Of a stretch of 59,458 nucleotides of DNA, positions 8,477 through 16,022 are shown piece by piece. Position numbers and translations under genes: made by a program. Under the pieces are notes generated by a model. The model had not been told where the DNA came from. It saw nothing but the letters and a program-made list of their open reading frames with translations, and did no database searches. The first letter of the stretch is position 1. Each line of letters begins with the position of its first letter. Source of the stretch: Oscillospiraceae bacterium (GTDB lineage Bacteria > Bacillota > Clostridia > Oscillospirales > Ruminococcaceae); assembly GCA_017848115.1 (NCBI GenBank), contig JAGAKZ010000044.1, positions 1-59,458 on the forward strand, in the 5' to 3' direction.

Positions 8477-10225
8477 ATGGCGCTATCTGATGATTTTATC
8501 TACCGTCTGCGAGCCGAAAATCCCATAGAAGATGTTTTTGGCTCTTATACTTTACTCAGAAGGCAAGGCTCAAACTTCAAATGCCTCTGCCCTTTTCATT
8601 CTGAAAGAACACCATCTTGTACAGTTTACAGGGATACACAAAGTTTTTATTGTTTCGGTTGCGGTGCAGGCGGAGATGTAATAACTTTTATAAAAAGAAT
8701 AGAAAACCTAAACTATATAGAAGCTGTTCGTTTTCTTGCCGAGCGTGCAGGACTGACTGTTCCCGAAAATAACTATAACGATAAGACGCTTAAAGAAAAA
8801 TCAAAAACTTTTGAAATCAATCGTGAAACTGCAAATTTTTATTATAAAAACCTTCTCTCAGGAGAAGATAAACGTGGACTTGCATATTTCAAATCACGTA
8901 ATCTCCTGCCTCAGACTATAAAAAAATATGGTCTTGGGTATGCTCCTGACAGCTGGAATGCCCTCAGAGATCATCTTCGTTCTCTTGGTTTTAAAGATAG
9001 TGAGATGATAACTGCCGGAGTTTGCAGAAGTTCACAAAAAGGCTGTTATGATGTATTCCGAGGTCGTGTGATGTTTCCTATCATAGATCTCAGAGGAAAT
9101 GTTATTGCATTCGGAGGAAGAATTATTTCCGGAGAAGGTGCAAAATATATAAACTCATCAGACACACCTGTATTCAAAAAAAGCCGTAACCTTTTTTCAC
9201 TCAATCACGCAAAGAATGCGGCATCAAAAAAACTTATCCTCGCAGAAGGATACATGGACGTTATCACCATAAATCAGGCAGGTTTTGAAAATGTTATAGC
9301 TACTCTTGGTACAGCTCTTACGCCTGAACAGGCGCGTATAATGTCACAATATGCAAATGAAGTCATCATCGCATATGACAGTGACATAGCAGGACAGGAA
9401 GCTACGCAGAAGGCTATAAATTTACTGAACGCCGCAGGTGTAACAACCAAAATAATAAAAATGGAATCTGCAAAAGATCCCGATGAATATATAAAAAAAT
9501 TCGGAAATACCCGATTTAAACTACTTCTCGAAAACTCAGGTGACGCAATCGCTTTTGAACTTGAAAAATGCAAAAACGGTCTTGACATCTCAAAAGAAGA
9601 AGATAAAGTAGTATATCTCAGAAAAATTGTATCAGTTATTTCCGCTCTTGATGATCCGCTCCAGAGAAGTGTATATATATCAAAAATTTCAAAAGAAACA
9701 GATATAAATACCGGAATAATAAATACTCAGGTTGAATACACAATCAAAAACAAACAAAATATAAAGAAAAAACTAGAGTGGAAAAACATTGAAAACAGCG
9801 TAAATACCCGCGATGAGATAAATCCCGATTCCGTAAAATATCCGAGAGAAAGCAAATCAGAAGAATTTATAATACTGTATACCAGTAAAAATCCGGACAA
9901 GTTAGAGCATATTCTTTCAAAAATAACTGCTCAGGACTTTGTTACAGAGTTTAATAAAAGAGTATTTTCATCTGTTTGTAAAGCAATCTCACAATCAGAA
10001 TCTTTTTCACTTTCTCATCTGTCTGATGAATACACTGATGCAGAAATGGGGAAAATATGCGGTATAGAGGCAAAAAATCGTGAAACCACGATAAAAGAAG
10101 AAACTCTGTACGATTGTATTGACGTTTTAAAGAATTTCAAAGGGAGTTTTGTATATAATAAAGACACAGAACTTTCCGATGATGATCTTTTGAAGATACA
10201 AACCCAAATGAAAAACAAAAAATAG
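8477..10225 (+). CDS. dnaG: DNA primase
   Basis: 582-aa primase that lays down RNA primers at the replication fork. The N-terminal CHC2 zinc finger is visible in CPFHSERTPSC and FYCFGCGAGGD (about residues 39-64). The TOPRIM catalytic core has EGYMDV (about 257) and the DSDIAGQEA metal-binding motif (about 301). The C-terminal part is the helicase-binding domain. An AGGAGG site lies 7 nt before the ATG. It is followed 12 bp later by rpoD, the classic Firmicute dnaG-rpoD arrangement. Confidence 0.97.
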   Translation: MALSDDFIYRLRAENPIEDVFGSYTLLRRQGSNFKCLCPFHSERTPSCTVYRDTQSFYCFGCGAGGDVITFIKRIENLNYIEAVRFLAERAGLTVPENNYNDKTLKEKSKTFEINRETANFYYKNLLSGEDKRGLAYFKSRNLLPQTIKKYGLGYAPDSWNALRDHLRSLGFKDSEMITAGVCRSSQKGCYDVFRGRVMFPIIDLRGNVIAFGGRIISGEGAKYINSSDTPVFKKSRNLFSLNHAKNAASKKLILAEGYMDVITINQAGFENVIATLGTALTPEQARIMSQYANEVIIAYDSDIAGQEATQKAINLLNAAGVTTKIIKMESAKDPDEYIKKFGNTRFKLLLENSGDAIAFELEKCKNGLDISKEEDKVVYLRKIVSVISALDDPLQRSVYISKISKETDINTGIINTQVEYTIKNKQNIKKKLEWKNIENSVNTRDEINPDSVKYPRESKSEEFIILYTSKNPDKLEHILSKITAQDFVTEFNKRVFSSVCKAISQSESFSLSHLSDEYTDAEMGKICGIEAKNRETTIKEETLYDCIDVLKNFKGSFVYNKDTELSDDDLLKIQTQMKNKK

Positions 10226-10237
10226 GAGGAAGATTTT

Positions 10238-11320
10238 ATGGCTAACGAAAAAAAGACTATCGAAAGCTTGCTTGAACAGGGTAAACTGACAGGTAAACTG
10301 ACAACAAAAGAAATCACTGACGCACTTGAGGAAACAGATTTCGATGTCGATCAGATGGATACGTTCTATGAAACCTGCGCAAACCTGAATATCGAAATCG
10401 TAGAAGATTTCTCCCCTGATACAGACCTTAAAATCGGTCTTGATTCTGGACTCAATGACGATCTGGAAATAGCACTTTCAACTGAAGGCATTGCTATAGA
10501 CGACCCTGTTAAGATTTATCTTAAAGAAATCGGTCGTGTTCCGCTTCTTACTCCTGAAGAAGAAATAGAGCTCGCAGCAAGAATGTCAAACGGAGACCCA
10601 TATGCAAGAAAACGCTTGTCAGAAGCAAATCTTCGTCTTGTTGTAAGTATAGCTAAACGTTACGGCGGAAGAGGAATGCAGTTCCTTGATCTTATCCAGG
10701 AAGGTAACCTCGGTCTTATAAAAGCCGTAGAAAAATTTGACCATACAAAAGGATTCAAGTTCTCCACATACGCAACATGGTGGATAAGACAAGCTATTAC
10801 AAGAGCTATCGCTGACCAGGCACGTACAATCAGAATCCCTGTTCACATGGTTGAAACTATCACTAAAGTAAAGAAAATTTCAAGCCAGCTTCTCCACGAA
10901 AACGGTCACGACCCAACGGCTGATGAAATCGCTGAAAAACTTGAAATGCCTGTTGACAAAGTTCGTGAAATAATGCGTATAGCCCAGGATCCTGTTTCAC
11001 TTGAAACACCTATCGGTGAAGAAGAAGACAGCCATCTCGGTGATTTTATACCTGATGATGACGCTCCTGCTCCAGCTGAAGCAGCTTCACTTGTTCTTCT
11101 TAAAGAACAGCTAAATGAAGTTCTTAACACACTTACAGAAAGAGAAGCGAAGGTTTTAAGACTCCGATTCGGTCTTGAAGATGGACGTTCACGCACACTT
11201 GAAGAAGTGGGCAAGGAATTTGAAGTAACAAGAGAAAGAATCAGACAGATTGAAGCCAAAGCTTTAAGAAAATTACGTCATCCAAGCAGAAGCAAAAAAG
11301 TTAGAGACTTTCTTGATTGA
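10238..11320 (+). CDS. rpoD: Primary (housekeeping) sigma factor RpoD/SigA
   Basis: 360-aa primary sigma factor. An acidic region 1.1 at the N-terminus is followed by region 1.2/2 ([16 protein letters not shown], then [17 protein letters not shown] and [15 protein letters not shown]), region 3 (the [11 protein letters not shown] stretch) and region 4 with the helix-turn-helix [27 protein letters not shown] precedes the start. It is 12 bp downstream of dnaG in the same transcription unit. The consensus-like promoters across the window match what this factor should recognise. Confidence 0.97.
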
Positions 11321-11354
11321 TCAAATTAAATTTCTGCAAAGGAGCTTTTAATAA

Positions 11355-11753
11355 ATGCGTTTAACATTAGAAGCTGACTACGCTGTTAGAATAATTAACT
11401 GTCTTTGCAATGATAATAACAGACTGGAAGCAAGAATAATATCCGAAAGATGTTGCATAACATTACGATTTACGTTAAAAATACTTCACAAGCTCGTTAC
11501 CGCCGGAATAGTACGCTCATTTAAGGGTACTAACGGCGGATACGAACTAAATATGAAGCCCTCTGAAATAACTCTTCGTAATGTTATTGAAACAGTTGAA
11601 GGTACATATTTTTTCAGTCGATGCCTTGAAGAACCTGCAGTATGCAGTAGTGGAAAAAAGAACTGCAAATTTCAGTGTATTTTCAATGAAATATCAACCA
11701 TGGTAAAAGAAAAGTTGGACAATTATACTTTTGATATGTTTATTGAAGATTAA
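11355..11753 (+). CDS. Rrf2 family transcriptional regulator, probable iron-sulfur type
   Basis: 132 aa with the Rrf2 winged helix (MRLTLEADYAVRIIN, then the wing KGTNGGYELNMKPSEITL). The C-terminal half carries cysteines in RCLEEPAVC, KNCKFQC, similar in placement to the [2Fe-2S] ligands of IscR-type members, so it may sense iron-sulfur status or redox (inference). No iscS/nifU/suf genes are in the window. It follows rpoD by 34 bp with an AAAGGAG site, so it may share that transcript. Its stop codon overlaps the U-tract of the minus-strand RNA terminator. Confidence 0.88.
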   Translation: MRLTLEADYAVRIINCLCNDNNRLEARIISERCCITLRFTLKILHKLVTAGIVRSFKGTNGGYELNMKPSEITLRNVIETVEGTYFFSRCLEEPAVCSSGKKNCKFQCIFNEISTMVKEKLDNYTFDMFIED

Positions 11754-11823
11754 AAAAATTATTGAATAAAACACGAAGGAGACCGAACTTCCACGGTCTC
11801 CTTTATGTTTGATTCAATAATTT
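11752..11823. terminator. Long-stem terminator, mainly of the minus-strand RNA
   Basis: A stem of 27 bp in three blocks (11756-11767 with 11812-11823; 11769-11773 with 11806-11810; 11776-11785 with 11794-11803), interrupted by a 2x2 internal loop and one mismatch. On the minus strand it ends in seven U (complement of 11752-11758). On the plus strand the inner stem also follows the Rrf2 gene but the T-tract there is weak. Confidence 0.85.
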
Positions 11824-12203
11824 CAGCATATTAATGCATCGGTACCACCTTTTATTCATGATACTAAGTGTTAAAAGCTTCCGGCCTATAATCACCACGT
11901 TTTAACACTCTCTTGTCCGAATGCTCTCGCATCTTTAAATGACCCCTTGTTAAACTCAAAGCCATTCATGATATCCTTCTGGCGGAACCACCCTCCTTAC
12001 TGTTTAATCGTTCTCCTCTTAAGAAAATCCAAGTAAACCATCGTTACCACTCTTTTCTAAGATTTATTTCAACAAACCTCGCACCAACCAGCAGCCACTC
12101 GGTCTGTTATTTTCACAGTTAAAAATCAATATATTACTTCATTGGTTTCACCTTTAATAATTATTTTTTTCTCAAAACTTCTTTATAATTTATAATTTTT
12201 ACA

Positions 12204-12503
12204 TTGGAAACACCTTTTTCTGTTTTTATTTTTGTCCGTTACTTAAACTGACTATTCCATTGGTCACACCTTTTTCTGTTTTTATTTTTTGTCCGTTACT
12301 TAAACCGACTATTCCATTGGTCACACCTTTTTCCGTTTTTATTTTTTGTCCGTTACTTAAACTGACTATTCCATTGGTCACACCTTTTTCTGTTTTTATT
12401 TTTTTCCGTCACTTAAACTGACTATTCCATTGGTCACACCTTTTTCTGTTTTTATTTTTTGTCCGTTACTTAAACTGACTATTCCATCGGAAACACCTTT
12501 TCA
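12204..12503 (-). repeat. Tandem 56-57-bp repeat carrying SD-AUG-GAA-UAG cassettes
   Basis: Anchors CATYGG on the plus strand fall at 12204, 12260, 12317, 12374, 12430 and 12487, spacing 56, 57, 57, 56 and 57. On the minus strand each unit runs A-rich tract, AAAAAGGTG, six nt, ATG. In five of six units the frame is ATG GAA TAG; in the sixth it is ATG TAA. The copies are nearly identical except for the three bases after GGTG (TTT in the outer two, TGA in the inner four) and a few point changes. Confidence 0.85.
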
Positions 12504-13124
12504 TTTAACTTATTTTTTTATTTTTATAGAATAATTATTGTTTTTTGCATGTAATAAAATTCTCTAATAAATCACATCAAACTAGCCATTGGAATCACCT
12601 TTGATACCTTATAAAATACTTCCCGGACCTGTTATTTCAAAGCACATCCGTTATAAACCTTTGTAAGTTCCCCCTACCAAAATCACACCATGTCAAATTG
12701 TAATATATAAAATCATGTGAGCTTCTTCACTTACAAAAGCGAATAACATTTGTAATCCGCTATGAACAACGCCTTTGTTTTTGCGGCCCATGACCTTCAC
12801 CAAAAACTTATGCTACGTTGATGACTCGTCGAACTTTAACATCCCTTTTAAAATCCCTAACCATCTGAGTCACGAAAGTCAATCCCGCTAATTTTAAAAA
12901 ACTCGTCAACTGTCAAGTCCATCGGACCCTACCTCCAAACATCATATATTTGTCTTACCGAAACCCTCTACCGAACCTGAACTACTATCCGTCTGTCATC
13001 ACATCCGACGACTTTACTACTTCTTTGGATCTGTTCACCGTCCTTGGTTTCCCAATAAAACCAAACTGTCAAGTTTGAGTCCAATTCTTATCGCCTGAAT
13101 TGTTCTCTCCCTTTCCATGTCTCT

Positions 13125-13153
13125 ATAATACCATAAGTTTTTGTCATTGTCAA
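13125..13153 (-). promoter_or_regulatory. Consensus sigma-A promoter driving the minus-strand RNA
   Basis: On the minus strand: TTGACA (complement of 13148-13153), 17-nt spacer, TATTAT (complement of 13125-13130), with an extended -10 TG. The predicted start near 13118 coincides with an ATG, so a leaderless short frame of 27 codons is a formal possibility. Confidence 0.85.
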
Positions 13154-13211
13154 CACTTTTTTATAAAAAAATTAAAAAAATATGTTTAATATGATGTTTA
13201 CAGAATATATC

Positions 13212-13240
13212 TTGACTTTCATCTGATTTTGTAGTAGAAT
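13212..13240 (+). promoter_or_regulatory. Sigma-A promoter for the DUF1292 gene
   Basis: TTGACT (13212-13217), 17-nt spacer, TAGAAT (13235-13240). The leader contains a small hairpin (13248-13252 with 13258-13262). It is divergent from the minus-strand RNA promoter about 60 bp away. Confidence 0.7.
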
Positions 13241-13316
13241 TATTTATGTAAGCGTGCCTTACGCATACATAAAAAAATGCCTTATTATTATATAAAGGCA
13301 GAAACGGAGTTATATT

Positions 13317-13631
13317 ATGTCAGAAGAAAAATCAGAATACACTCCTGACCTCTACACTTTAGAGGACGAAAACGGAGTAGAACAGACATTTGAAATGCTC
13401 GATGCGCTCGAAGAAAACGGTACACGTTATTTTGCACTTGTTCCTTACTATGAAAATCCTGAAGAGTCACTTACTGAAAATGATGAACTGGTAATACTCA
13501 AAGCTGAAATGGAAGGCGATGAGGAAATGCTCGTTTCCATTGATGATGATGACGAATTTGACAGAATCGGTCAGATTTTCCTCAAACGTATCGAAGAGAT
13601 GTTTGAAGACGACTATGAAGATGAGGAATAA
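13317..13631 (+). CDS. DUF1292 family protein
   Basis: 104-aa acidic protein of the DUF1292 (YrzB-like) family. The core TLEDENGVEQTFEMLDALEENGTRYFALVPY and the later EEMLVSIDDDDEFDRI region match the family pattern (quoted pieces are partial). The C-terminus is a run of Asp/Glu. Function is unknown; in many Firmicutes it sits near yrrL/yqgF-type genes, not seen here. An ACGGAG site precedes the ATG. Single-gene unit, followed at once by the 6S promoter. Confidence 0.85.
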   Translation: MSEEKSEYTPDLYTLEDENGVEQTFEMLDALEENGTRYFALVPYYENPEESLTENDELVILKAEMEGDEEMLVSIDDDDEFDRIGQIFLKRIEEMFEDDYEDEE

Positions 13632-13658
13632 TTTTTTTCATTTTCCATAAAATTTTTA

Positions 13659-13687
13659 TTGACATTTGGAGATCAGTATGTTATAAT
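13659..13687 (+). promoter_or_regulatory. Perfect-consensus promoter for the 6S RNA candidate
   Basis: TTGACA (13659-13664), 17-nt spacer, TATAAT (13682-13687), TG extended -10. This is an exact match to the sigma-A consensus, which fits an abundant stable RNA. Confidence 0.9.
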
Positions 13688-13693
13688 TCTAAA

Positions 13694-13960
13694 TGTAAAC
13701 AGGTTATCATTTCTGCCTTGTGCGTATGTGTATGGCTCATATAATCCAACACATTATCCTAGGGAATTTCGCTCTGGATGTGGATTGCAGACCTCCCTTG
13801 TATTTGTTTTTCAGGTATATAGGACGAAGGGAGCGTGAATCTTTCAGGCTGATACCCACCTGCTTTATAAGCGGGTTTTATATGCCGTATGTTACGGCAA
13901 GGCGGTTTATTTCTTGTAAATTTAAATCAGGTGCTTTTGTAGCATCTGATTTTTATTTTT
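13694..13960 (+). ncRNA. ssrS: 6S RNA candidate
   Basis: A transcript bounded by a perfect promoter and an intrinsic terminator folds as one long rod. The ends pair (13713-13720 with 13898-13905), a second block UAUGGC/GCCGUA follows, and an 8-bp stem CTCCCTT/GAAGGGAG lies further in, with unpaired central segments. The region enclosed by the closing stem is 193 nt, the usual 6S length. The ACCCACCTGC...GCGGGT hairpin near the 3' side resembles the Firmicute 6S pattern as I remember it. 6S RNA mimics an open promoter and binds the housekeeping RNA polymerase. No open frame is supported. It lacks the GGNA-loop hallmarks of SRP RNA. Confidence 0.7.
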
Positions 13961-13962
13961 TC
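13925..13962 (+). terminator. Terminator of the 6S RNA candidate
   Basis: A 10-bp stem with one wobble (13925-13934 with 13942-13951) followed by a T-rich tract. Confidence 0.85.
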
Positions 13963-13987
13963 TCAAAAAAACTTAATATACAAACAA

Positions 13988-14030
13988 AAAATCAGAAGCG
14001 AAATACTATACTTCGTTTCTGATTTTTTTA
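13988..14030. terminator. Bidirectional terminator between 6S RNA and the kinase-like gene
   Basis: A 15-bp stem with one wobble (13988-14002 with 14012-14026) followed by T on the plus strand and by TTTTTGTTTG on the minus strand. On the minus strand it closes the gene ending at 14040. Confidence 0.85.
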
Positions 14031-14039
14031 TTTATTGAT

Positions 14040-15950
14040 TTATTCTGGCGAAACACCCGGTGAACATATCACCTTTCCGTTTCCTGAATTATCTGTGAAA
14101 TGTACGATGAGAACATCTCCACCTTCAAGTATCTCTCCTGCCTTAGGCTCTGTACCTATAGCATATCCACTATGATATCCTGTGTTTACTTGTGGAATAG
14201 CTCTGTAGGAAATACCCATATCATCAAGAAGCGCAAGGAAGTCCTCGATCTTATAACAGTTTACAGGACCTGTCTTATATGATGGTACCTCAGCCTCACC
14301 GTCGCCCTTACTAACCTGAACAGTAACAGTAGCTCCTTCTGATACCCATGTATTTGCTGCGACACTCTGAGATATGATCATTCCCTTTTCATAAGTTTCG
14401 CTCTTTACATATTCCGGAACAAGTTCTATGTACTGCAATATAGATGAATACATCTTGATGTCTTCATAATACTTTCCTACAAGGTCTATCATCTTGATAT
14501 TTGCATCAACGTCTCCCGTAACATCAACAACAGTCGTTTCTTCCGGTTCATCAGTTTCCGGAGGAAGAGTTACCTGAGCTCCGTTATCAATTTCAGTATC
14601 GGATACCGGCTCTTCTGTTACCGGCAACGGTGTTGTAGTAACCGGAGGAGGAGTTGTAATGGTCGGAAGCTGAGCCTCAAGACTCTCCTTGGCACTTATA
14701 CCATCCATTATATTTTTTATAAAGACTCCAAGTATAGTACCTACTATTACAAGAAGTATTATGATAATAAGCGGTATCTTGATTTTATCAAGAACATTTC
14801 CGTTTTCATTATCATCCGGGGTTCTTCTGACTGGCATATCTTGATATTCACGCCTTTCTGTTTTTTTCTCAGAATCAGCTGTTGATCTTGCAGAAGAATC
14901 AGAATATGACCTTCCTGAAGAATTTGCAGCAGCTGTAGCTGACATAGCTCTCTGTATCTTTACATTAAGCGAAGTCTTCAGCTTTTCTTCTTCAGACGGT
15001 TCAAAAATTCTTGTCACAAGTTCTGTAACCGTCCTTATTCTGTTATCCCCGTTAATCCTTAATCCTTCCATAATAGCATTTGAAACATTGCGAGGAATAT
15101 CCGGATTTATAGCATCCGGTGGTGTAAGTTTACTTTCCTCACTTCTTAAAGATGCCTCTGTAGGCATACAACCTGTGAGTATTCTGTAAAGCACAGCACA
15201 GATGCCGTAAACATCTGTCCATGCACCTTGCCAACTACTCGGTGAATACTGTTCAGGTGCTGCATATCCCTTAAAAACTTCCGATCTCAATTCATTTCCG
15301 GTAGTTCTTGCAGCAGCTATACAAAAGTCTATAAGTCTGAGCTCACCTTTTGTAGTAACATATATTGTTTTCGGACTTATCCCTCTGTGAATTATTCCAG
15401 CGTTATGCAGTATACTAAGTGTCGTAAATATCGGCGGAAATAATGCTGAAACCTGTTCCCAATTAAGTTCACCTGCATTTTCCTTGAGATACTGTATAAG
15501 GTTTACTCCCTCAACGTACTCATAAACTGCATAAGTAGTATTGTTTTCTGAAAACATATCCAGAACTGTATTTATATTATTTATAGTCTTTAACTTTGCA
15601 AGCTTTCTATGCAACTCTGTAAACTCAGCCATCAATGATTTGTACTGCGCAACATCACTGTGATTTACATTTATCATAGGAGATTTTGCCTCTCTTGAAC
15701 AGAGCGCATCAGGCATATATTCTCTTATAAAAACCTTTGAAGACATAAGAGTATCAAACGCAAGGTATGTAGCACCCTCGCCATTTTGCATTATAAGTTT
15801 TCCAAATATATACCGACCATTGTTAAGCTTTGTTCCGGGAATTATATACGATGGCGAACATTCAGTATCTTGCTTAAATCCACAGACCGGGCATTTTATC
15901 TGCTCGCCTATGGGTTCAAAACATCCATAACACAACTTGGTATCCCCCAT
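14040..15950 (-). CDS. Membrane protein-kinase-like protein with zinc ribbon and PASTA-like ectodomain; predicted pseudokinase
   Basis: 636 aa. An N-terminal zinc ribbon uses C7, C10, C20, C23. A protein-kinase fold spans about 36-315, followed by a Ser-rich linker, one transmembrane helix (about 389-411), a Pro/Thr-rich stalk and two PASTA-like extracellular repeats. The catalytic residues are changed: the VAIK lysine is Arg76 (VFIRE), the HRD aspartate is Gly190 (HRGISPKT), and DFG is DFC at 208-210. The protein should therefore keep the fold but not transfer phosphate in the usual way. PASTA kinases sense cell-wall muropeptides, so a scaffold or sensor role at the envelope is likely (inference). 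AAGGAGG precedes the ATG. Own promoter and terminator. Confidence 0.85.
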   Translation of the reverse strand: MGDTKLCYGCFEPIGEQIKCPVCGFKQDTECSPSYIIPGTKLNNGRYIFGKLIMQNGEGATYLAFDTLMSSKVFIREYMPDALCSREAKSPMINVNHSDVAQYKSLMAEFTELHRKLAKLKTINNINTVLDMFSENNTTYAVYEYVEGVNLIQYLKENAGELNWEQVSALFPPIFTTLSILHNAGIIHRGISPKTIYVTTKGELRLIDFCIAAARTTGNELRSEVFKGYAAPEQYSPSSWQGAWTDVYGICAVLYRILTGCMPTEASLRSEESKLTPPDAINPDIPRNVSNAIMEGLRINGDNRIRTVTELVTRIFEPSEEEKLKTSLNVKIQRAMSATAAANSSGRSYSDSSARSTADSEKKTERREYQDMPVRRTPDDNENGNVLDKIKIPLIIIILLVIVGTILGVFIKNIMDGISAKESLEAQLPTITTPPPVTTTPLPVTEEPVSDTEIDNGAQVTLPPETDEPEETTVVDVTGDVDANIKMIDLVGKYYEDIKMYSSILQYIELVPEYVKSETYEKGMIISQSVAANTWVSEGATVTVQVSKGDGEAEVPSYKTGPVNCYKIEDFLALLDDMGISYRAIPQVNTGYHSGYAIGTEPKAGEILEGGDVLIVHFTDNSGNGKVICSPGVSPE

Positions 15951-15993
15951 ATTTTACCTCCTTGTTTTTAATAATTCATTCATTACCTAAAAT

Positions 15994-16022
15994 ATAATAT
16001 CAATAATTATCCGGTTTGTCAA
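15994..16022 (-). promoter_or_regulatory. Promoter for the PASTA pseudokinase gene
   Basis: Minus-strand TTGACA (complement of 16017-16022), 17-nt spacer, TATTAT (complement of 15994-15999). Confidence 0.75.

Follow-up and report, generated by a model that had tools for sequence, protein, structure and literature searches.

Minigenes and titrating RNAs are the closest described systems to the locus reported here. The bar minigenes of phage lambda cause drop-off and place a load on peptidyl-tRNA hydrolase. In eukaryotes, the start-stop uORFs, for which a ribosome-holding role has been considered, lie in 5' UTRs, rely on cap scanning and act in cis, without an SD. 6S RNA imitates the template of a central machine and thereby titrates it. 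CsrB and RsmZ are marked by tandem SD-like motifs; in CsrB, CsrC and RsmZ the GGA motifs in hairpin loops bind CsrA, and no AUG-stop is known. The bacterial minigenes named in one paper, i.e. the axe-txe mini-ORF, LEE1/LEE4 and ycbK, lie before the gene that is affected, a short ORF with a strong SD protects its mRNA via ribosome occupancy, and a two-codon ORF raises expression, possibly via mRNA stability (PMC8708949). Long bacterial RNAs are represented by OLE, GOLLD and ROOL (PMC12286853).

The window analysed here is a 59,458-nt stretch of DNA from an Oscillospiraceae bacterium, in which the initial annotation had proposed an uncharacterised large RNA gene on the minus strand. This proposal is supported: promoter, terminator and place are conserved, no Rfam match was found, and long frames matched each other only between two genomes of one genus. 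Searches of an open-access library listed no description of an RNA built from tandem start-stop minigenes, and on the basis of this negative result we rate a tandem minigene array in an RNA of its own as a new kind.

Organization and distribution of the RNA unit

The minus-strand unit (13153-11752) has two protein genes as neighbours, Rrf2 (PF02082), which is convergent with it, and DUF1292, which is divergent (Table 1). Its promoter, TTGACA-N17-TATTAT with extended -10, is present as the initial annotation described it and ranks second best among 23 sites scored in 9000-16000, a site count which in itself proves nothing since shuffled sequences also average 23.0 sites. The promoter block is identical in the sister species G010 (48/48), and the promoter is much like those read at four of the eight 16S loci of G007, where an upstream A run is followed by TATTGACA or TGTTGACA and then by GTATAAT or GATATAAT. 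This rRNA-like character suggests strong, growth-linked transcription of the RNA. The terminator, for which a 27-bp stem with U7 had been claimed, agrees with that description in its 30-nt arms of 90% complementarity and its T7 tract, and has an 8-nt loop; it differs from G010 at 1 of 69 aligned sites, with one further base missing.

Table 1. Features of the RNA unit and of its neighbours (positions in the window)
Feature	Position	Strand	Basis or detail
Promoter TTGACA-N17-TATTAT, extended -10 (TG before second hexamer)	13125..13153	-	11/12 consensus matches
Expected start site of RNA	near 13118	-	listed with the promoter
5' hairpin	13083..13101	-	stem of 4 pairs, a fifth possible; loop of 9 nt, AGGCGAUAA
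First cassette and its ORF, 21 codons MDLTVDEFFKISGIDFRDSDG	12857..12936	-	aligned to G010
Cassette 2, ATG + 4 codons + TGA (MASLM)	12572..12599	-	aligned to G010
Start-stop cassette 3, ATGGAATAG	12479..12497	-	strict pattern; G010 alignment
Start-stop cassette 4, ATGGAATAG	12422..12440	-	strict pattern; G010 alignment
Start-stop cassette 5, ATGGAATAG	12366..12384	-	strict pattern; G010 alignment
Start-stop cassette 6, ATGGAATAG	12309..12327	-	strict pattern; G010 alignment
Start-stop cassette 7, ATGGAATAG	12252..12270	-	strict pattern; G010 alignment
Start-stop cassette 8, ATGTAA, no sense codon	12199..12214	-	strict pattern; G010 alignment
Start-stop cassette 9, ATGAAGTAA	12134..12152	-	strict pattern; G010 alignment
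Short basic ORF MVYLDFLKRRTIKQ	11997..12041	-	nearer 3' end of RNA
Start-less SD element GGAGGGTGGTTCCGCCAGAA	11977..11996	-	directly 3' of basic ORF
Start-stop cassette 10, ATGCATTAA	11831..11849	-	strict pattern; G010 alignment
Intrinsic terminator	11752..11823	-	arms 11756-11785 and 11794-11823, 30 nt, 90% complementary
DUF1292 protein gene, syntenic anchor	13317..13631	+	Pfam PF06949, E 3.9e-16; divergent from RNA
6S RNA gene, neighbour	13707..13912	+	Rfam RF00013, 62.7 bits; just beyond DUF1292

The order 6S, DUF1292, (divergent) RNA, Rrf2 and rpoD is shared between the window and G010, and Rrf2 lies beside the array also in G002 and G006. In G001, G007, G005 and G009 (L022, L025, L026 and L027) no Rrf2 match was found between the RNA and rpoD, which there comes next; the RNA persists without an Rrf2 neighbour. 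In genera beyond that of the window the RNA is again divergent from DUF1292, as a rule. The 6S gene, located approximately 0.6 kb from the expected start of the RNA, was present in 10 of 12 related loci scanned, and 6S RNA adjoining DUF1292 is itself a frequent pairing (10/12 of these loci). As the unit is closed by a terminator of its own and Rrf2, which comes next, is convergent with it, the RNA is not the leader of a cis-regulated gene.

In line with the claim that a long reading frame is missing, no ATG frame in the first 1200 nt exceeds 32 aa for the RNA strand or 33 aa for the opposite strand; when other starts are allowed, a 51-aa GTG frame (RNA strand) and a 53-aa TTG frame (opposite strand) appear, both over the repeats. 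Both strands of 21 such RNAs yielded 35 ATG frames of ≥ 45 aa, with some on the opposite strand reaching up to 142 aa. Mutual matches among these occurred only between two g53 genomes. A protein-coding repeat on either strand was rejected, the frames being broken at the 56-nt units and not generally conserved over the 21 RNAs.

The Rfam search suggested by the initial annotation returned no family at gathering score for the RNA unit, either in the window, where only the 6S RNA and a tRNA were found, or in the 12 loci scanned from relatives. With the threshold relaxed to E 5, seven matches were obtained in 11700-13320, all under their cut-offs (SNORD73, two microRNA families, TUC338, snoZ165 and psRNA6), and no 6S match was found within the unit itself. 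The only covarying element found is a 4-bp hairpin near the 5' end, and extensive conserved structure was not found. Pairs 1-4 of this hairpin are standard in 9/9 genus sequences, with pair 3 changed on both sides in one sequence and pair 4 in two; the loop carries one C in G008. Folding z-scores, calculated per 200 nt for five RNAs, range from -1.6 to +0.9 in the window (G000), from -2.3 to +1.0 in G010 and from -2.0 to +2.5 in G007. L047 reaches -3.2 near the 3' end and L051 -3.7 inside its RNA, lower values lying mostly beyond the RNA; the L051 value indicates that some relatives are more structured. The cassettes are predicted to be no more accessible than other stretches (21 RNAs, p 0.24).

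In a search of 61 genomes, 10 of the 11 belonging to the window's genus matched the unit with E values no higher than 1e-10; the sole miss within the genus is G003, which is 85% complete. Fourteen other genomes called positive have best E values of 4e-4 to 0.008 and look like AT-rich chance. The G010 match is 82% over the RNA length, and other members of the genus share the promoter block and/or the array. For G002, G006 and G008 the contig breaks off within the array. In G004 the contig (L028) ends just before it, with about 35 last bases that are adapter-like and presumably are sequencing adapter; since the contig ends there in such letters, the array may be an assembly break point in this genome.

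The strict two-cassette pattern was found in 4 of 394 genomes of the order, i.e. that of the window and three of genus g53. A looser single-cassette pattern was found in 27 of 197 family genomes, with controls matching in 3. Of 30 loci fetched from this looser search, 12 carried ≥ 2 cassettes (10 genomes, 7 genera), and DUF1292 lies within 9 of these 12 stretches. These 7 genera together with g1 and g53 place the RNA in at least 9 genera of the family, and this conserved RNA gene near 6S appears to be present in Ruminococcus-related bacteria of rumen and gut. A class-wide sample of 216 genomes, searched with a pattern that scores 0 on the window's own genome, returned G067 (same family) and one unrelated single minigene match. 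The family boundary is provisional, since this sample holds two family genomes and the pattern misses GGUG types. The RNA is not a general need, as it was not found in the samples of other families.

The match from another family (G712/L166) was rejected as an instance of the RNA, as it is a single ATGGTTTAA between two frames; at about position 1500 of the minus strand of L166, a lone SD-ATGGTTTAA minigene lies in the short leader of a secreted-protein-like frame. The phage collection gave no match to the RNA. A phage origin was also rejected, the 10 viral contigs with the two-cassette pattern looking, by eye, like coding repeats or other coding sequence. As a side observation, L069, L072 and L073, from Bacteroidales-labelled MAGs, encode a DUF1292 relative of the clostridial protein, and are perhaps mis-binned contigs.

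Start-stop cassettes and associated elements

In its strict form the cassette reads AGGTGnnnCC(A/G)ATG, and the stop follows directly or one codon later (as in ATGGAATAG, ATGTAA and ATGAAGTAA). The pattern occurs eight times in the 59-kb window, all within the RNA, so that several SD-CC(A/G)-AUG-(0-3 codons)-stop cassettes lie on one strand of an independent unit; 56/57-nt units form a tandem array within 12199-12501. The tandem array noted by the initial annotation is thus present, while its description as start cassettes has to be amended to start-stop cassettes, the stop being the conserved feature. Nine of the ten cassettes in the window carry GGUG instead of GGA. The ATGTAA cassette 3' of the array is also found in G001, G002, G005, G007, G009 and G010.

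When the window is aligned with G010, 5 of 196 cassette sites carry a difference, compared to 195 of 1085 sites in the remainder of the RNA (p 4e-10, Fisher test). As the spacers (18%) diverge more than the intergenic stretch towards DUF1292 (13/159), the background with which the low rate of the cassettes is contrasted is itself a fast one. The first ORF differs at 4 of 66 sites, the basic ORF including its SD at 3 of 59 and the start-less SD element at 0 of 20. Cassettes, promoter, terminator and start-less SD are accordingly the most conserved parts, the rest of the RNA being 18% divergent between the two species. The pattern points to purifying selection on the cassettes.

Relatives keep an SD-like word, a short spacer ending in CCA or CCG, an AUG, and a stop after 0-1 codon. 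The forms seen include ATGGAATAG, ATGGAATAA, ATGGACTGA, ATGGAGTAA, ATGTAA and ATGAAGTAA in the window's genus, ATGAAATAA, ATGTACAGGTAA and ATGATTTAA in g53, and ATGTACTGA, ATGAGATAA, ATGACTTGA and ATGGCATGA in other genera. A stop within one sense codon of the cassette start was found in frame at 115 of 194 sites, compared to 8 in the +1 and 12 in the +2 frame, in a set drawn from 40 of 92 sequences picked for ≥ 3 sites, which includes near-duplicates (L042/L043, L050/L052, L061/L062, L064/L065) and a few sites past the RNA end (L037, L046, L058, L062, L066). L039, a copy of G001, was dropped from this set, and G157, entered on the wrong strand, contributes nothing. Within three codons the corresponding values are 140, 42 and 32.

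A set of 153 cassettes from 39 loci, which takes in seven of the twelve family loci and in which a few cassettes (e.g. in L080) are chance, contains 120 of the one-sense-codon form AUG-X-stop, with 18 different codons at X, and 8 of the form AUG-stop without any X. The stops of these 128 cassettes are TAA in 83, TAG in 25 and TGA in 20 cases. As the second codons vary and all three stops are used, it is codon meaning that is kept rather than a fixed string.

For 125 of the 153 cassettes, the best match to the complement of the 16S tail (taken from the G007 16S) has its end at position -2 or -1 relative to the AUG, the remaining values including nine cassettes at -3 and ten at -4. The register of gene SDs peaks at -2 to 0 with a wider spread (38/113 at -2 or -1). 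Cassettes with an AGGUG core are mostly at -2 and those with GGAG or AGGAG mostly at -1, i.e. two different cores are held in nearly one register. The median SD binding energy is -12.5 for cassettes (n=133, 37 chosen sequences) and -10.2 for genes (n=108), a comparison that is partly selected, as an SD-like word plus CC(A/G) is a precondition of the cassette pattern, and only supportive, as cassettes and genes were chosen by different rules. Similarly, CC(A/G)ATG is found at 0 of 108 gene starts and is carried by the cassettes by construction. The tests of frame, codon make-up and SD register point, indirectly, to translation of the cassettes.

The association with DUF1292 was quantified in 80 DUF1292 loci. 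The 1.7 kb divergent from DUF1292 contain 65 strict matches (0.504 per kb), compared to 18 elsewhere on both strands (0.0118 per kb), although these counts are not independent, as the cassettes are partly copies of each other. At least one strict match was found in the divergent 1.7 kb of 22 loci and at least two in 17; 58 had none. A looser scan gave clusters in 18 of the 80 loci, one of which (L044) is a single site counted twice, and 18/18 lie on the strand that diverges from DUF1292. Where the DUF1292 protein is less similar, in L069 to L111, next to no cassettes were seen.

Two short ORFs accompany the cassettes. In relatives translated by eye, the first cassette starts an ORF that is roughly 13-34 codons long and often has acidic residues among its early ones. 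The second ORF is short and basic, and behind it comes GGAGUGAGUCCRCCAGAA, which is SD-like but lacks a start codon. Of 44 rows from a search that permitted distances of -22 to +6, 29 have the basic-ORF stop 8-10 nt ahead of this start-less SD; among the 44, two pairs (L032, G000) each represent a single site, and L100, L107, L037 and the third of L043 look like chance. In the window's genus the gap is mostly shorter, or the two overlap; in G001 it is 10.

Possible functions of the array

The explanation that we prefer, with confidence somewhat short of even, is that the RNA acts in trans as a ribosome decoy, tuning free initiation capacity. It would be a stand-alone RNA gene, the working parts of which are tandem minigenes of the form SD-AUG-0/1 codon (sometimes 2-4)-stop. 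Transcribed from a promoter of the rRNA class, it would load 30S subunits at about ten SD sites, and each initiating ribosome would terminate or drop off at once. Ribosomes, initiator tRNA, and initiation as well as release/recycling factors would thereby be engaged without protein being made or the next site being overrun. The start-less SD after the basic ORF would provide a parking site for post-termination subunits, and the RNA as a whole would be the translational counterpart of the 6S RNA encoded about 0.6 kb away. The cassettes, with their conservation, frame, SD register and place in the genome, are read directly from the DNA; transcription and its level, ribosome binding and the decoy function are inferred, as is the link to growth control, which rests on the rRNA-like promoter and the 6S neighbour. 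In favour of the decoy we count the in-frame stops, the free choice of second codon, the purifying selection on the cassettes, their density in this RNA, their SD register, the 16S-like promoter and the independent, terminated unit. The recurring first-cassette ORF and short basic ORF count against a pure decoy, which would need neither. Further points against are the unremarkable predicted accessibility of the cassettes, the negative samples of other families and the 58 of 80 DUF1292 loci without a strict match.

The main rival, unlikely on balance, is protection in cis: the minigenes would load ribosomes that shield a long, weakly structured transcript from Rho or RNases, the payload being elsewhere in the RNA, e.g. 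one of the two short peptides (first or basic) or a segment with antisense action. The protection of mRNA by a short ORF with a strong SD, and the effect of a two-codon ORF, are described in PMC8708949. The recurrence of the basic ORF at its typical distance from the start-less SD, and the fair conservation of both ORFs between the window and G010, also favour this reading. Conversely, a payload is expected to be conserved, and the most conserved parts are instead the cassettes, promoter, terminator and start-less SD.

Other readings are less probable. In one, which we consider improbable, the AUG-X-stop minigenes promote drop-off and so load peptidyl-tRNA hydrolase and recycling factors, forming a sink for tRNA or peptidyl-tRNA. 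The predominance of the AUG-X-stop form fits, as does ATGATATAA in the relative L033, which we take to be the form of lambda barI; against it, X is not one fixed codon, and AUG-stop forms without X recur. A CsrB-like sponge for an RNA-binding protein of GGA or SD-like sites, such as CsrA, is quite improbable. The tandem SD-like motifs resemble those of CsrB/RsmZ, and CsrA (PF02599) is encoded in 7 of 12 RNA-carrying genomes searched, G000 included. Still, CsrA was not found in the other 5 carriers (11 of the 12 genomes are at least 90% complete), by which the sponge was rejected as a general answer; the window cassettes favour GGUG over GGA, and a sponge has no need of an in-frame stop. Many cassettes of other genera carry GGAG, with hairpin pairing not clearly above shuffle.

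A relay between cassettes, with the ribosome on one opening a hairpin that masks the SD of the next, is very improbable. SD-hiding pairings exist in L051 (z -2.31 and -1.03), and z is below -1.5 in 10 of 101 consecutive cassette pairs; the mean over the 101 pairs is nevertheless -0.10, so that the relay, promising in L051, fails in general. A GGN/N'CC mini-hairpin, found in 26 of 48 distinct motifs versus 21.1 in shuffled sequences and reached in 441 of 5000 shuffles, was also set aside as not clearly above shuffle. In L051 itself (~1.1 kb divergent from DUF1292), SDs can pair just 3' of the preceding stop, e.g. CUUUUGCAA with UUGCAGGAG, a possible relay that is not general. A decayed protein gene or neutral tandem repeat, to which a 57-nt unit reading as a 19-aa repeat in one frame might point, is hardly credible and already contradicted by the start-stop frame kept across genera, by the promoter, cassettes and terminator kept between species, and by unit-length changes that break the repeat frame.

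Extending the decoy reading, we more tentatively propose a new class of regulatory RNA: a decoy that would capture and release ribosomes via start-stop minigenes and start-less SDs, co-regulated with rRNA and paired with 6S, setting transcription and translation capacity together. If true, a conserved gene made up almost entirely of successive minigenes would show that bacteria put non-productive initiation to use as a function, and would be relevant to how the number of free ribosomes is adjusted. Such a gene is of a kind missed by both protein annotation and RNA-structure models, and the idea is testable by ordinary methods in culturable relatives.

Comparison with known systems

The RNA shares its length with OLE, GOLLD and ROOL, which are ornate folded complexes; here the window shows no excess structure and no Rfam match. 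A compact RNA of that ornate sort was rejected on the z range of the window and the single 4-bp covarying hairpin. With T-box leaders there is a likeness in GGUGGUACC, which we take to resemble the T-box motif AGGGUGGNACC. The T-box reading was rejected as well, since no T-box match appears even at E 5 and the terminator precedes any same-strand gene; the RNA is not a leader, and the motif is an SD in AUG register. The ornate-RNA and T-box readings, like those of a CsrA sponge and a hairpin relay, are weak.

CsrB, CsrC and RsmZ are similar in that tandem SD-like motifs in an RNA possibly titrate a factor, and differ in having no known AUG-stop and in that the factor, CsrA, was not found in 5/12 carriers here. 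6S RNA is both a neighbouring gene and a precedent for titration of a central machine, that machine being RNA polymerase, whereas here the target would be the ribosome and the unit has no 6S match. The eukaryotic AUG-stop uORFs likewise have a start codon directly followed by a stop; they differ in their 5' UTR location, cap scanning, cis action and lack of an SD, the cassettes here being SD-led. Closest are the bacterial minigenes (axe-txe, LEE1/LEE4, ycbK and lambda bar), which have the same succession of SD, AUG, one or few codons and stop, and act through ribosomes rather than through a protein product. Those described in PMC8708949 are single or few, act in cis and lie before a gene, whereas here about ten are gathered in a separate, terminated unit with no downstream gene.
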